Assembly: GCA_021766785.1 (NCBI GenBank)
Contig: JAICBP010000076.1
Span: 129,225-183,740, forward strand
Direction: 5' to 3'
Origin: Sulfurimonas sp. endosymbiont of Alviniconcha boucheti
Lineage (GTDB): Bacteria; Campylobacterota; Campylobacteria; Campylobacterales; Sulfurimonadaceae
Length of the DNA stretch: 54,516 nucleotides
This document shows positions 4,172 through 10,092 of this stretch, piece after piece. A model generated the notes under the pieces. It was not told the origin of the DNA, did not search any database, and worked only from the letters and a program-made list of their open reading frames with translations. A program made the position numbers and the translations under genes. How positions within the stretch are numbered: position 1 is the stretch's first letter; every line of letters starts with the position of its first letter.

Positions 4172-4246
4172 GGCCCCGTCGTCTAGCGGTTAGGATCCAT
4201 GGTTTTCATCCATGTTACAGGAGTTCAATTCTCCTCGGGGTCACCA
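4172..4246 (+). tRNA. tRNA-Glu (anticodon TTC)
   Basis: 75 nt including an encoded CCA end. The acceptor stem GGCCCCG pairs with CGGGGTC (one G-U). The anticodon stem CATGG/CCATG encloses the loop TTTTCAT, giving anticodon TTC. The T arm carries GTTCAATTC between GAG/CTC stems. It lies about 120 bases before glnS, so a glutamate tRNA sits beside a glutaminyl-tRNA synthetase and a GluRS paralogue. The gene is probably transcribed alone. Confidence 0.96.
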
Positions 4247-4365
4247 CTTCTTCTTTATAACTTCTAAAAATAAGAACTTTTACAAACGCCAATTCTAATT
4301 TCTAAGCTCTTTTTTGCTAAAATACTTCTCATAAATAAGTTTTCATGAATAAAGGTCTAATAATA

Positions 4366-6618
4366 ATGAAAAAGAGCAAAAACTTTCTACAAACAATAGT
4401 TGAAAAAGATTTACAATCAGGAAAGTATAAAGAGATAATAACAAGATTTCCTCCTGAGCCAAATGGATTTCCACATATTGGACATGCAAAATCTATTTTT
4501 ATTAACTTTGGTATTGCTCGTGATTATAATGGTCACTGTAACCTGCGTATGGATGATACAAATCCAACAAAAGAGGATACAAAATATGTTGAAGCACTCA
4601 AAGATGCTGTTCTTTGGTTAGGATATAGGTGGGAAGGGAATATCCATTTTACTTCTGATTATTTTACTCAAATTCATGAATATGCTATAAAACTCATTAC
4701 AATGGGTAAAGCTTATGTTGATAGTGTTGATGAAGAGAAAATGAGAGAGCTTCGTGGAACTGTTACAGAAGCTGGTAAACGCAGTAAGTATGCAAAAAGA
4801 ACTGTAGCAGAGAACTTAGATATGTTTGAGCGCATGAGAAAGGGTGAGTTTAAAGATGGAGAACATGTTCTTCGTGCAAAGATAGATATGTCTTCTGCAA
4901 ATATGAAAATGCGTGATCCTCTTATGTATCGTATACGTCATGCTGAGCATTTTAGAACTGGAAATAAGTGGTGTATCTACCCTATGTATGATTTTGCACA
5001 CTCTCTTTCAGACTATATAGAAGGAGTCTCCCACTCTATCTGTACCTTAGAGTTTGAAAACAATCGTGATATTTACAACTGGGTACTTGATACATTAGAC
5101 TTAACTCCTCCTCGCCCCTACCAACATGAGTTTGCGAGACTAGGTATAAACTATACAGTTATGAGTAAACGTAAACTCTTAGAGTTAGTCAAAGGGAAGT
5201 ATGTTAATGGATGGGATGATCCGCGTTTACCAACTATTGCAGGATTACGAAGAAAAGGTTATACTCCTGAGTCTATAGTTACTTTTTGTGATAAAGTTGG
5301 TATTGCAAAAGCAAACTCTATGGTTGATATTGCTCAACTAGAGTTTACTATAAGAGCTGATCTAAACACTAAAGTACCTCGTGTTATGTGTGTACTTAAT
5401 CCATTAAAAATAACGTTGGTAAATTACAGGGAAAAAGGAGAAAAACTTGATGCCTCTTACTATCCTGATGATGTGCCCAAAAAAGGATCACGTGCACTCC
5501 CTTTTTCTCGTGAAATTTATATTGAACGTGATGATTTTGAAGAGAATCCTCCCAAGGGCTATTTTCGTCTTACACCTGAGCAACCAGTAAGACTCAAACA
5601 TGGGTATATTATTGCTTGTAAAGAGATTATCAAAGATATTAATGGTTGTATCACAGAAATAAAAGCGGAGTATTACCCTACTTCTCAAAGTGGATCAGAT
5701 AGTAGTGGCATTAAAGTCAAAAGTGCTATCCACTGGGTAAGTGCTGATACGGCAAAAAGAGTAGAAGTGAGACTATACGATAGACTTTACTCCTCTGAAA
5801 TTCCAGAGAGTATAGAAGATCTCAACCCTAACTCGCTAAAAGTTATAACAGATGCACTTATTGAACCTGCTGTCGTCAATGAAAAACCTGATGAAAGATT
5901 TCAGTTTGAGAGACAAGGATACTTCTATGCTGATCCAATTGACTATACAGATGAAAAACCAGTTTATAATAAAATAGTAGGTCTTAAAGATTCTTGGGGT
6001 AAAAAGACAAAAGTTACACTACAAAAATCACAGACAAAAGAGAAAAAAGAGCAGATTGATGGTGAGGTTGTAGCTATGACTCCAGAACAAGAGAAGCTTT
6101 TTGATAGATACAAAAAAGAGTTGAAGCTCAATAGTGAGATTGCGAATACTCTTGCACGTGATGCAGATCTTTCAGCTTTTTTTGAGATGGCATTAAAAGT
6201 ACTGTATAGTCCTATTAACCTAGCAAATATCATTACAAATGAAGTAGCACGTGAGATAAAACAGAGTTCAAAGGATAGTCTCAAGTTTACCCCTAATCAG
6301 ATAGCAGAGCTTATTGAAATGGTGGATAAAGCTACTATTTCAAATAAAATTGCAAAACAAGTTTTTGAAGAGATGGTAACTTCTGGAGCTAATCCAAAAG
6401 AGATAGTAGAGAAAAGAGGACTTTTACAGATAAGTGACCCTGACCATATCGGAAGAGTTATCGATGAAGTTATTGAAAAAAACTATGAGAATCTTGAGAA
6501 ATTTAGAGCTGGAAATAAAAAACTCTTAGGCTTCTTCGTTGGGCAGGTACTTAAAGCTACAGGTGGTAAAGCTAACCCAAAACTAGTCAACCAACTTCTA
6601 GTACAAAAGTTAGGATAA
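4366..6618 (+). CDS. glnS: Glutaminyl-tRNA synthetase with C-terminal YqeY/GatB-like tail
   Basis: A class I synthetase that charges tRNA-Gln with glutamine. The HIGH motif is intact (FPHIGH, residues 37-40) and the KMSKS loop is VMSKR (265-269). The chosen ATG at 4366 has AAAGG ten bases upstream; an in-frame ATG at 4345 lacks a ribosome site. The protein has 750 residues against about 550 for E. coli GlnRS. The extra part from about residue 565 to the end is a helical tail ending in segments such as GFFVGQVLKATGGKANP that match the YqeY/GatB C-terminal tRNA-binding domain, as described for Deinococcus GlnRS. Direct GlnRS is unusual in this phylum, whose better-known members make Gln-tRNA with GatCAB. 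The degenerate GluRS gene follows after 12 bases. Confidence 0.95.
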   Translation: MKKSKNFLQTIVEKDLQSGKYKEIITRFPPEPNGFPHIGHAKSIFINFGIARDYNGHCNLRMDDTNPTKEDTKYVEALKDAVLWLGYRWEGNIHFTSDYFTQIHEYAIKLITMGKAYVDSVDEEKMRELRGTVTEAGKRSKYAKRTVAENLDMFERMRKGEFKDGEHVLRAKIDMSSANMKMRDPLMYRIRHAEHFRTGNKWCIYPMYDFAHSLSDYIEGVSHSICTLEFENNRDIYNWVLDTLDLTPPRPYQHEFARLGINYTVMSKRKLLELVKGKYVNGWDDPRLPTIAGLRRKGYTPESIVTFCDKVGIAKANSMVDIAQLEFTIRADLNTKVPRVMCVLNPLKITLVNYREKGEKLDASYYPDDVPKKGSRALPFSREIYIERDDFEENPPKGYFRLTPEQPVRLKHGYIIACKEIIKDINGCITEIKAEYYPTSQSGSDSSGIKVKSAIHWVSADTAKRVEVRLYDRLYSSEIPESIEDLNPNSLKVITDALIEPAVVNEKPDERFQFERQGYFYADPIDYTDEKPVYNKIVGLKDSWGKKTKVTLQKSQTKEKKEQIDGEVVAMTPEQEKLFDRYKKELKLNSEIANTLARDADLSAFFEMALKVLYSPINLANIITNEVAREIKQSSKDSLKFTPNQIAELIEMVDKATISNKIAKQVFEEMVTSGANPKEIVEKRGLLQISDPDHIGRVIDEVIEKNYENLEKFRAGNKKLLGFFVGQVLKATGGKANPKLVNQLLVQKLG

Positions 6619-6630
6619 AAGGGATTTTTT

Positions 6631-7905
6631 ATGTTAAGATTTGCCATTAGCCCTACAAGTGACTTGAAACTAGATACCCTGCGTATCGCTCTATATAACT
6701 ATATAGTTGCGAAACAACGGGGAGAAGATTTTATTGTTCGTATTGAAGATATGGAGAAAGAGAGAGTTATTGATGGGATGGATGATGAGATTTTAGATTT
6801 ACTTGCTCTTTTTGGTGTGCAGTTTTCTCAAGTTATTCATCAGAGCCAAAATGTACGTTTTCATTCAGCTATGGCACTGCAACTTGTGCATGAGAGAAAA
6901 GCATTTAGCTGTTTCTGTTCAGATAACTGGTTAGAGAACAAACGCGAAGAGGCAGAACAAGCAGGTAGAGTCTATAGTTATGATGATGCTTGTAGAAACC
7001 TCCCTGTAGAGCTTATTATAGATAATACAAATCCTTTTAGGATTAGAGTTGTAAGACCTGATGCCGATATTATTATTCATGATAAAATTTTAGGTGATAA
7101 AAAGTTTATACCAAATGCGGTAGATAGTTTTGTCATTTTAAACCAAGACAAAACACCGACATATAACTTCTCTGTAGCTATAGATGATATGTTAAGTGAT
7201 ATCTCTCTTATTATTCGCTCTGAAGAGTTTATAGAAGAAACGCCAAAACAAGAGTATATACGATCAGCACTTAAGTATAAAAAGCAAGTGGAGTATGCTC
7301 ATCTCCCTTTAATGAATAATCTTGATAGTGCACCAAGTGTTAAAGCATTACTTAAAGAGGGTTTTCTTCCTAATGCTATTTTAAATTATTTAGTATCAAT
7401 CGGAAATAAAGTACCTCAAGAGATATTTACATTACAAGAAGCTATTGGCTTTTTAGACTTAGAGAGAGTATCAAAGACTCCAGTAAATTTCGATATAAAT
7501 GTATTAAAACAAGTCAATAGAGCTCATCTTAAAGCACTAGATACAAAAGAACTTTCACGTTTCGTCGGTTTTGCTGATGCAGAGATAGGTGCATTAGCTC
7601 GCATTTACCTAGATGAAGTTACAACTACAAAAGAGCTAAAGGCTAAAATAGCTTCCATATTTGCAGAGCGAAATATTCCTAAAGCATTTGCTAAGGAGTG
7701 TAGTATATTAATTAATATTATTACAAATACACCCTACTTTGAGAAGTATGATGCATTTAAAAAAGAGACTCTTAAAGCATCTGGCTTAGAGAGTGAAAGA
7801 TATGAGATTGCCCTGCGTTTACTACTAACAAACGCGACAGAGGGTCCAGATATTGCTGAAATATATCAGCACATTAAAAATTACATTGGGGAGATTGTAA
7901 AATAA
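6631..7905 (+). CDS. GluRS-like protein lacking HIGH and KMSKS motifs (probably inactive paralogue)
   Basis: 424 residues, full length for a bacterial glutamyl-tRNA synthetase and similar to it throughout (RFAISPT start, RIED, CFCSD, TPTYNFSVAIDDM, FLPNAILNYL, NYIGEIVK end). However, the positions of the ATP-binding HIGH motif read K-L-D-T (residues 13-16). The usual GEDH-type segment reads R-S-E-E-F (196-200). The lysine-rich GKKMSKR loop is missing, replaced by a short NNLDSAPSVK (229-238). A class I synthetase without these motifs should not activate glutamate. The frame is intact and sits between glnS and yggT with tight spacing, so selection seems to keep the protein. It may descend from the tRNA-Gln-specific GluRS2 made redundant by GlnRS. 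A tRNA-binding or regulatory role is possible but not shown. Confidence 0.88.
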   Translation: MLRFAISPTSDLKLDTLRIALYNYIVAKQRGEDFIVRIEDMEKERVIDGMDDEILDLLALFGVQFSQVIHQSQNVRFHSAMALQLVHERKAFSCFCSDNWLENKREEAEQAGRVYSYDDACRNLPVELIIDNTNPFRIRVVRPDADIIIHDKILGDKKFIPNAVDSFVILNQDKTPTYNFSVAIDDMLSDISLIIRSEEFIEETPKQEYIRSALKYKKQVEYAHLPLMNNLDSAPSVKALLKEGFLPNAILNYLVSIGNKVPQEIFTLQEAIGFLDLERVSKTPVNFDINVLKQVNRAHLKALDTKELSRFVGFADAEIGALARIYLDEVTTTKELKAKIASIFAERNIPKAFAKECSILINIITNTPYFEKYDAFKKETLKASGLESERYEIALRLLLTNATEGPDIAEIYQHIKNYIGEIVK

Positions 7906-8189
7906 TGCAAGCACTTATAGAGATAATACAGGGAATTGGTAACATTTTCATCAGCCTTATTGGCGTTTATATTTGGGTACTCATCATCCAAGCACTTCTG
8001 AGTTTCGTAAATCCAGATCCATATAACCCAGTCGTACAGTTTTTACATCGTATAACTACTCCAGCTTATAGTTTTGTAAGAAGATTTATAAGAACTGACT
8101 ACAATGGACTAGACCTCGCACCTTTAGTACTTATAATAGGTCTTCAGATAGTAACAGTTATATTAGGCACCCTACTTCGTTCTCTTTAG
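7905..8189 (+). CDS. yggT: YggT family integral membrane protein
   Basis: 94 residues with two strongly hydrophobic stretches (about residues 8-33 and 70-92) flanking the family signature FVNPDPYNPVVQFLHRITTP and an Arg-rich RRFIRTDYNGLDLAPLV segment. YggT proteins are small inner-membrane proteins of uncertain function, linked to cell division, osmotic tolerance and membrane protein biology in various bacteria. The ATG overlaps the preceding gltX-like stop by one base, so it is co-translated with it. Its 3' end overlaps the convergent lipoprotein gene by four bases. Confidence 0.9.
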   Translation: MQALIEIIQGIGNIFISLIGVYIWVLIIQALLSFVNPDPYNPVVQFLHRITTPAYSFVRRFIRTDYNGLDLAPLVLIIGLQIVTVILGTLLRSL

Positions 8190-8647
8190 TCCTCTTTTTT
8201 GTAGATAAGAGGGTCTGAAGTGAAATTACTATTTTTAGCTATAAAGCTTAGTCTATTATCAAGTTTCTTAAACCGTACAAGATAGTATCTTTTCCACTCC
8301 TGTGTTGAAGAGAGGAGATATGAAAATTTATTTTTTACTTGTAACTCTTTAACGCTGAGTGCTTCTTCTCCATTGAGAAAAAACTTTATATCTCTCCCTT
8401 TATCTTTTGTTGTGTAGATAGAGACATAAAACCATTCATCTTCATTATATGTTTTAGCAAGTACTTGATTGAGGTAGAGAACACTCAGAGTACCTATTGT
8501 TTTATTTTGAGAATGAATTTTGGAACTTAAAATACTATTTTCACATTTAATCTGCATAGAGGTAAGGTTGAACCTAGAAAAAGCATTTGAGCTTGAACAT
8601 CCTATAAAAAGTGTTGAAATTAAAATAATTAGTAAAAAAGTTTTCAT
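8186..8647 (-). CDS. Putative lipoprotein, 153 aa
   Basis: The N-terminus MKTFLLIILISTLFIGCSSS is a clear type II signal with lipobox LFIG-C, so Cys17 should be lipidated. The remainder is a small, lysine-rich, probably beta-structured domain that I do not recognise. The gene is convergent with yggT (four-base overlap) and divergent from mobB. A putative lipoprotein at this spot between yggT and mobB matches the gene order I recall from Campylobacter, where a lytic transglycosylase also lies nearby; none is present here. Confidence 0.78.
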   Translation of the reverse strand: MKTFLLIILISTLFIGCSSSNAFSRFNLTSMQIKCENSILSSKIHSQNKTIGTLSVLYLNQVLAKTYNEDEWFYVSIYTTKDKGRDIKFFLNGEEALSVKELQVKNKFSYLLSSTQEWKRYYLVRFKKLDNRLSFIAKNSNFTSDPLIYKKED

Positions 8648-8732
8648 TTTTTTCCTTTTGTATAGTCGAAATTATATCTTATTAAACTCTTCTTTTGTAT
8701 AATCATTGAAATTTTATTTTAGGACTTATATA

Positions 8733-9236
8733 TTGAGTAAAAGATTAGCAGTAGCATTTACTGGACCATCTAACAGTGGAAAAACAACTCTTATTTTAAA
8801 AGTAGCAAGAAAACTCATCCATGATCATAAGCTTAAAATAGCTATTATTAAACACGATCCAAAAGATAAGGCTCGTTTTGATGTAGAGGGAAAGGATAGC
8901 TATAAGTTCAGCGATACTGGTGCAGAGGTAATAGTAACCTCTCCTAACCGTACAACTTACTTTTCACAACATAAATCAGAACTTGATGATATGATAAGAC
9001 TATTTAATAAGTTTGATATTTTACTAGTAGAGGGTCTAAAAAATCTTCCTCTACCAAGAATAAGTGTATTCCGTAATCATATTGACAAGGATTATTTACC
9101 CTATATGAATGCTTTAGCAACGGATAGTAGTATTAACATACAGAACTACGATATTCCAGAAAATATTGAGCAACTTGATCTAAATGATATAGATGCTGTA
9201 ATAGAGTGGATATTAAAAAACGCCAAAAAAGTTTAA
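8733..9236 (+). CDS. mobB: Molybdopterin-guanine dinucleotide biosynthesis protein B
   Basis: A small GTPase-like protein that assists MobA in attaching GMP to molybdopterin for Mo/W enzymes. The P-loop GPSNSGKTT is at residues 11-19, followed by IKHDPKDKARFDVEGKDS and LLVEGLKNLPLPRI, all typical of MobB. I place the start at a TTG at 8733 because AGGA lies eight bases before it; an upstream in-frame TTG at 8706 lacks a ribosome site and would add nine atypical residues. Product 167 aa. It leads the mobB-fbp-small Cys protein group. No mobA is in the window. Confidence 0.9.
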   Translation: MSKRLAVAFTGPSNSGKTTLILKVARKLIHDHKLKIAIIKHDPKDKARFDVEGKDSYKFSDTGAEVIVTSPNRTTYFSQHKSELDDMIRLFNKFDILLVEGLKNLPLPRISVFRNHIDKDYLPYMNALATDSSINIQNYDIPENIEQLDLNDIDAVIEWILKNAKKV

Positions 9237-9249
9237 ATAAAGGACAAAA

Positions 9250-10092
9250 ATGAGAGATATATTTAACGCAATACAGAGAAGTGCTAGGAGAATTAAACAT
9301 GCCATAGATGTAAAAGATATAGGCTACTCACAACTAGAGAACAGTTCTGGGGAAATGCAACTTCAACTTGATATTCAGTGCGATTTGATTATTCAAGAGG
9401 AGTTCTCTAAAGTTGCTTCTATCCATACGATAGCAAGTGAAGAGAAAGAGAGAGAGATGCTTTTAGATGAAAATGGAAAGTATTATATTGCTTATGATCC
9501 TCTTGATGGTTCTTCTTTAGTAGATGTAAATCTTAGTGTTGGCTCTATTTATGGTATCTATGAAAATGCATTTGGTACAGCAAATATGGTAGCAGCTTGT
9601 TATGTTGTTCATGGTCCTCGCGTTGAGATGGTTTTTGCAGAAAATAAAACAAAACTTTACTTGCTTCAAGATGGTGAGTTTGAGTTTGTTAAAGAGATAA
9701 GAGTTGGTGATAAAGGTAGGCTGATGGCTCCAGGTGGAACACAGAAAAATTGGGCTCCTTATCATAAAAATATGATAGACTCATTTTTCCAAGAAGGCTA
9801 TAGACTTCGTTATTCTGGTGGTATGGTACCTGACTTACATCAGATACTTCTTAAAGGTGGTGGACTCTTCTCTTACCCAGGGACTAGTGATAAGCCAGAG
9901 GGAAAACTTCGTCGTCTTTTTGAAGTGTTTCCTTTTGCATTTATTTATGAAAAGTCTGGTGGCTATGCAATAGATGGTAAAAATGACCTCATGACATTAG
10001 GTCATGCACATATACACGATACTGCAATCTGCTTCTTTGGTTCAAAGTATGAGATAGATCGTGTTAAAGAGGTTTATATAAAAAATGCATAA
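9250..10092 (+). CDS. fbp: Fructose-1,6-bisphosphatase class I
   Basis: 280 residues, somewhat short for class I FBPase but complete in motifs: the metal site D-P-L-D-G-S (83-88), GSIYGIY, and [17 protein letters not shown] near the active site. It hydrolyses fructose-1,6-bisphosphate to fructose-6-phosphate in the cytoplasm, the committed step of gluconeogenesis, which is needed for biomass from CO2 via the rTCA cycle. It has AAAGGA ahead of the ATG, lies 13 bases after mobB, and its 3' end overlaps the next small gene by eight bases. Confidence 0.94.

Follow-up and report, generated by a model that had tools for sequence, protein, structure and literature searches.

The window, by which we mean the whole stretch of 54,516 nucleotides analyzed here from the genome of a Sulfurimonas endosymbiont, contains a second glutamyl-tRNA synthetase gene, gltX2, between a glutaminyl-tRNA synthetase gene and yggT. 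The features of this locus are given below, where dead and intact refer to the state of the HIGN and KMSKR motifs in GluRS2 orthologues:

4345–6618, + strand: GlnRS-YqeY fusion (glutaminyl-tRNA synthetase; PRK14703, 1176 bits; TIGR00440, 688 bits), with HIGHAKS and MSKRK intact
6631–7905, + strand: gltX2, a predicted GluRS2 pseudoenzyme with a full-length fold (424 aa; TIGR00464, AF2 model, structure superposition and omega)
6667–6678, + strand: KLDT instead of HIGN, residues 13–16, the first ATP-binding motif lost (orthologue alignment)
6910–6993, + strand: CFC..YDDAC elements, residues 94–121, a putative zinc-binding insertion, retained (C94, C96, Y117 and C121 in 73/73 dead genus orthologues)
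7216–7230, + strand: RSEEF instead of RGEDH, residues 196–200 (orthologue alignment)
7318–7323, + strand: site of an 8-residue deletion between residues 230 and 231, the GKKMSKRD loop gone (orthologue alignment)
7549–7578, + strand: ELSRFVGFAD, residues 307–316, GluRS2-specific and retained in dead copies (nearly every position in 71–74 of 74 dead orthologues)
7624–7662, + strand: TTKELKAKIASIF, residues 332–344, a retained helix, aligned to the one used for anticodon recognition in other GluRS (conservation, GluRS1 comparison and profile alignment)
7888–7893, + strand: GGGGAG, the likely Shine-Dalgarno sequence of yggT within the gltX2 3' end (from sequence; only the last codons show increased synonymous constraint)
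7905–8189, + strand: yggT, whose ATG overlaps the gltX2 stop (TAATG at 7903–7907)

The gltX2 product matches the bacterial GluRS profile TIGR00464 (gltX_bact) over residues 2–416 with 298.6 bits, against a cut-off of 290 (289.95), and PF00749 with 159 bits against a cut-off of 23.4, which places it in the bacterial GluRS fold family. Its AF2 model (mean pLDDT 91.9) superposes end to end on whole GluRS structures, including that of E. coli GluRS (Z 36.6 over 417 residues). The profile coverage and the superposition bear out the first-pass annotation, which had described a full-length GluRS paralogue with its ATP-binding motifs erased. The erasure itself is evident from comparison with intact orthologues of 432 aa that read HIGN, IRGEDH and GKKMSKRD: the window copy has KLDT and IRSEEF at the first two and lacks the loop of the third, and is thus without both the HIGH-type and the KMSKR-type ATP motifs of a functional GluRS. 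It is closest to the GluRS2 of its relatives (43–77% identity, versus about 32% to GluRS1), and its synteny, before yggT, and its separateness from GluRS1, which has its own locus at C82, both fit the Campylobacterota GluRS2 group. Taken as sequences, these comparisons confirm gltX2 as an orthologue of the Campylobacterota GluRS2, with the active site lost and the reading frame whole. We also considered GluQRS (YadB), another GluRS paralogue with a non-standard role, whose profile is matched by the catalytic half of gltX2; this identity was rejected on score (TIGR03838, 140.1 bits against a cut-off of 276.7). The two also differ in make-up: GluQRS is a catalytic enzyme with no C-terminal domain, whereas the gltX2 product has that domain and no ATP motifs.

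Immediately 5' of gltX2, across a gap of 12 nt, lies the GlnRS-YqeY ORF, in agreement with the GlnRS assigned there in the first pass; this is the enzyme that makes charging by GluRS2 redundant. The second, canonical gltX that such a reading called for is found elsewhere in the same genome (GluRS1, at G000:C82:520968, with an LHIGG motif), as are a tRNA-Gln(UUG) gene and a GatB match. A profile search of the source genome gave no AsnRS match above the cut-off; hence, GatCAB is presumably still required for asparagine. A tRNA-Glu(UUC) gene lies at 4172–4246, just 5' of the GlnRS gene. The placement of GlnRS varies: it is co-directional with gltX2 and within about 30 nt of it in the window's clade, divergent and 78–216 nt upstream in 38 GlnRS-bearing genomes, and elsewhere in the genome in others. 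On the 3' side, gltX2 and yggT overlap by 1–16 nt across almost the whole set of Sulfurimonas orthologues, both dead and intact, and the stop/start overlap suggests that their translation is probably coupled. In other Campylobacterota, yggT is part of a yggT-slt-lipoprotein-mobB-fbp cluster, which we compared over loci L287, L288 and L290–L292; slt has apparently been lost in most Sulfurimonas, including the window (8186–10092), and at the ends of contigs L287 and L288, both from Sulfurimonas, there is an slt-like ORF.

A GluRS2 was detected in 117 of the 135 Sulfurimonas genomes, and a GlnRS in 84. We aligned 130 GluRS2 orthologues, 17 of them from other families, and scored 129 rows on HIGN and KMSKR. 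When GlnRS is present, 75/77 GluRS2 are dead and two intact; when it is absent, 47/52 are intact and five are not (Fisher p ~7e-27, with phylogeny ignored). One of the GlnRS-bearing genomes with a dead gltX2 is that of Sulfurimonas indica. When the motif columns were left out of the tree, phylogenetically independent pairs typically gave five in agreement and none opposed, too small a number for significance at 0.05 in a sign test. At least 15 changes in GlnRS presence are counted on the GluRS2 tree, with gain and loss not told apart, and 12 in motif state; the quick tree has long dead branches, so that some of the grouping of dead rows may be an artefact. The motif loss first noticed in the window copy is therefore common to about 75 orthologues, and its recurrence together with its tracking of GlnRS excludes chance. 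Most of the exceptions can be put down to contig breaks, a fragment, incompletely assembled genomes or transitional states. Among those lacking GlnRS, the contigs of G018 and G091 begin 20 and 0 nt upstream of gltX2, a place commonly occupied by GlnRS; G029 is a 79% complete assembly, G154 has a fragment with KMSKR intact, and G155 reads KMSKQ and PTDNF. The transitional genomes cover several stages: G156 has GlnRS with all GluRS2 motifs intact, G104 and G078 keep KMSKR with other active-site segments altered, and in G130, G144, G139, G066, G109 and G100 the KMSKR loop is there, in mutated form. Four dead copies (L131, L132, L130 and L133, from G112, G085, G122 and G088, respectively) have a further in-frame deletion around residues 258–281.

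Across the class, GlnRS is present in 29/200 members (at least 90% complete), distributed over 16/47 genera. Four genera other than Sulfurimonas include both genomes with dead and genomes with intact GluRS2 (G272 versus G314, G039 versus G058, G202 versus G041, and G281/G317 versus G046). Their lesions vary (KMSPS, LSPHD and loop deletions of unequal length), which makes the deaths appear independent; dead GluRS2 thus looks, on sequence, to have arisen several times, also outside the Sulfurimonas family. A further transitional genome, G313, has GlnRS and intact-looking GluRS2 motifs (HIGN, KISKR). In three other GlnRS-bearing genomes (G042, G045 and G332), the yggT locus is assembled, gltX2 is absent and yggT is free-standing, indicating that certain lineages can do without GluRS2 when they have GlnRS. 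An apparent absence of both GluRS2 and YggT from G025, G152 and G019 was considered as a sign of functional linkage and set aside as most likely due to assembly gaps, since the contigs of G025 and G152 stop inside an ORF 5' of fbp (called slt-like from its position and by eye) and G019 is also without fbp. The contig of G141 ends 52 nt upstream of yggT.

The first-pass annotation had proposed that GlnRS arrived and GluRS2 lost its job. The tracking of GlnRS by motif loss, the transitional genomes and the same contrast in four other genera all favor this history, and we regard it as almost certain that GlnRS made GluRS2 redundant. GluRS2 of the Campylobacterota charges tRNA-Gln with glutamate for GatCAB; acquisition of GlnRS-YqeY would have brought in direct charging of tRNA-Gln and rendered the chemistry of GluRS2 dispensable. 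The comparison shows that the GluRS2 residues for ATP, for glutamate and for the acceptor end then decayed. In H. pylori, GluRS2 indeed makes Glu-tRNA(Gln) (PMC6523644). A different division of labor was suggested for the epsilonproteobacteria in 2014, namely that GlnRS is idle and that GluRS2 with GatCAB still makes Gln-tRNA: PMC3927822 reports that six of the ten epsilonproteobacterial genomes then known, Sulfurimonas autotrophica among them, have GluRS2 together with a GlnRS that may be non-functional, with GlnRS patchily distributed and GluRS2 seemingly obligatory across the ten. Against this, HIGHAKS is kept in 23/23 full-length GlnRS ORFs of the named loci, the window GlnRS has an omega of 0.071 in its clade, and it is GluRS2 that loses its motifs where GlnRS is present and is missing from three GlnRS-bearing genomes with an assembled locus. 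An idle GlnRS is, thus, extremely improbable, and the 2014 suggestion seems to have the roles of the two enzymes the wrong way round. The passages of PMC3927822 consulted report no motif loss in GluRS2, with KMSK not found in its main text, and we found no description of a GluRS2 pseudoenzyme in the open-access literature.

A whole reading frame over a scrambled active site could also belong to a young pseudogene, with stops and frameshifts yet to come. We estimated omega (GY, F3X4) for eight clades dead throughout and five intact clades. The dead clades range from 0.041 to 0.160 (seven of eight at 0.10–0.16, and the sparse P_del clade at 0.041) versus 0.019–0.047 for the intact ones. That these values are three to six times those of intact clades, and that the scrambling of the active site differs from lineage to lineage, would both suit ongoing decay. 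However, omega is far below one within clades that were already dead at their common ancestor, and omega = 1 was rejected in every clade (2dlnL 126–546 for the dead ones). Synonymous sites may be saturated in the deep clades, but an omega of 0.16 is also obtained for P_D, the clade with the shortest tree (length 0.56). Moreover, there are no internal stops in any Sulfurimonas GluRS2 orthologue, against more than 40 stop gains expected in a neutral simulation of the window clade, which is crude in that its synonymous fraction is assumed. A young pseudogene is, hence, highly unlikely. The gltX2 of the window clade itself, with an omega of 0.133 (2dlnL 426 against omega 1) and no stops, has none of the marks of drift that the first pass had named as the alternative to its "kept but non-charging" protein; the omega of 0.10–0.16 in most dead clades agrees with the latter. 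As judged from these substitution patterns, dead GluRS2 has been under continued purifying selection after its death.

The residues lost and kept offer pointers to what is being selected. Positions invariant in intact copies and scattered in dead ones (H13, G15, N16, T41, R171, Y178, N179, R196–H200, N203, KMSKR, W239 and R286, with the letters of the intact class) cluster in motifs around the active site, and we infer that dead GluRS2 has lost aminoacylation. It is conceivable that an unusual site lacking HIGH and KMSKR still activates glutamate or charges tRNA, given that R3, S7, E/D39 and D40 of the glutamate-site region are kept in some dead copies. Yet dead copies differ freely from one another in the ATP motifs and at Y178, N179, R196 and H200, and the lesions differ by lineage, unlike those of a remodelled active site; residual activity is accordingly very improbable. 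Basic positions (R105, K112, R116, K387 and K389) are also lost. In general, hydrophobic invariants are retained best in dead copies (mean 0.84) and basic ones worst (mean 0.63), and mean net charge goes from -9.3 in intact to -17.7 in dead copies. This preferential loss of invariant basic residues argues against ordinary acceptor-end tRNA binding, while the helices on the anticodon side are kept.

Kept almost without exception in dead copies are C94, C96, Y117 and C121, of which the cysteines may bind zinc, ELVIDN..PF.R, S166-F167, D185–M187, R211, residues 307–316, much of 332–344, Y412, N417 and Y418. Within the 307–316 element, E307, S309, R310, G313 and A315 vary in GluRS1 of the same species. 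A single profile alignment matches residues 332–344 to the E. coli GluRS helix carrying R350, which we take to be an anticodon-recognition position. Over the same 20 species, whole-protein mean identity is 60% for dead GluRS2 versus 81% for GluRS1; by entropy, dead GluRS2 is the more conserved of the two in residues 305–345 (0.65 versus 0.72) and 407–424 (0.75 versus 0.96), and they are equally conserved in residues 76–97. Constraint at the RNA level was ruled out for the internal conserved elements, where synonymous codon identity is at background, so that selection there acts on the protein; the last gltX2 codons additionally hold the yggT ribosome-binding region.

The main rival to a binding role for this protein holds that translation of gltX2 serves solely to bring ribosomes to the yggT start that overlaps it, in which case its frame must remain open and its product need only fold harmlessly, with no function of its own. 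The stop/start overlap in nearly every genus orthologue, dead or intact, the superior retention of hydrophobic invariants over basic ones, and the free-standing yggT of the three genomes that lost GluRS2 are all in keeping with it, and the need to fold during yggT-driven translation could by itself explain conservation. It sits less well with the many charged or polar residues that never vary among dead copies (E127, D131, R139, K174, R211, K218, E307, S309, R310, D316, T332 and T333), with the ten-residue run 307–316 conserved across all helix faces, or with C-terminal elements that surpass GluRS1 in conservation; a shorter ORF would, moreover, serve coupling equally well. We therefore hold this explanation to be unlikely, though a serious one. 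Our preferred reading, which we consider somewhat probable, is that dead GluRS2 is kept for a non-catalytic binding role. It draws on the regions 305–345 and 407–424 that are more conserved than in the live GluRS1, the lack of synonymous constraint on the internal elements and the predicted full fold. GluRS2 would have had such a role besides charging, and the dead protein would survive as a partner-binding pseudoenzyme, most likely through its C-terminal anticodon-side helices and the cysteine-bearing insertion. Candidates for the partner are a protein and tRNA-Gln, the latter gripped at its anticodon arm. The tRNA is plausible in light of the alignment of 332–344 with the R350 helix, but is weakened as a candidate by the loss of K387, K389 and other basic residues, in view of which a protein is no less likely. 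The absence of gltX2 from G042, G045 and G332 shows that some lineages can do without any second role of GluRS2, which counts against the binding role. The more general proposal, that the Campylobacterota GluRS2 has an ancestral aminoacylation-independent function, exerted via a GluRS2-specific C-terminal ELSRYVGFAD/TTKEL element and repeatedly unmasked when GlnRS acquisition leaves pseudoenzymes maintained for that function alone, might equally be right or wrong.

Some dead aminoacyl-tRNA synthetase paralogues, such as HisZ, act as accessory or regulatory subunits. Dead GluRS2 would resemble them, should the binding role prove correct, as a non-charging synthetase body kept by selection; it differs in belonging to another class and family, and in that its death repeatedly follows acquisition of a replacement enzyme. 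Of the known systems, the Campylobacterota GluRS2 (e.g., the tRNA-Gln-specific enzyme of H. pylori; PMC6523644, PMC3927822) is the one to which gltX2 is orthologous, with a similar length class, the place before yggT, the C-terminal element and, in intact relatives, a HIGN-type N-terminus; unlike it, gltX2 has HIGN, RGEDH and KMSKR destroyed and co-occurs with GlnRS. The Thermotoga maritima-type paralogue is likewise a second GluRS, which charges neither tRNA-Glu nor tRNA-Gln according to PMC3927822, as gltX2 would not going by its motifs; by the same paper that paralogue differs in originating from a duplicated catalytic domain, and it is linked there neither to GlnRS arrival nor to erased ATP motifs. 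Within one genus, then, the switch from the indirect (GluRS2 and GatCAB) to the direct (GlnRS) route to Gln-tRNA is caught repeatedly, with intermediates. Should the dead protein truly have a retained function, then GluRS2, which Helicobacter and other Campylobacterota share, does more than charge tRNA-Gln, and the dead copies would constitute dozens of natural separation-of-function alleles for finding that function. The C-terminal element is recognizable in the GluRS2 of most other families, dead copies included. The most eroded GluRS2 (L266 and L270, from G333 and G315) are about 380 aa long and have lost the CxC element and kept the C-terminal FGFADSDIG.LAKLYLE..ST element.
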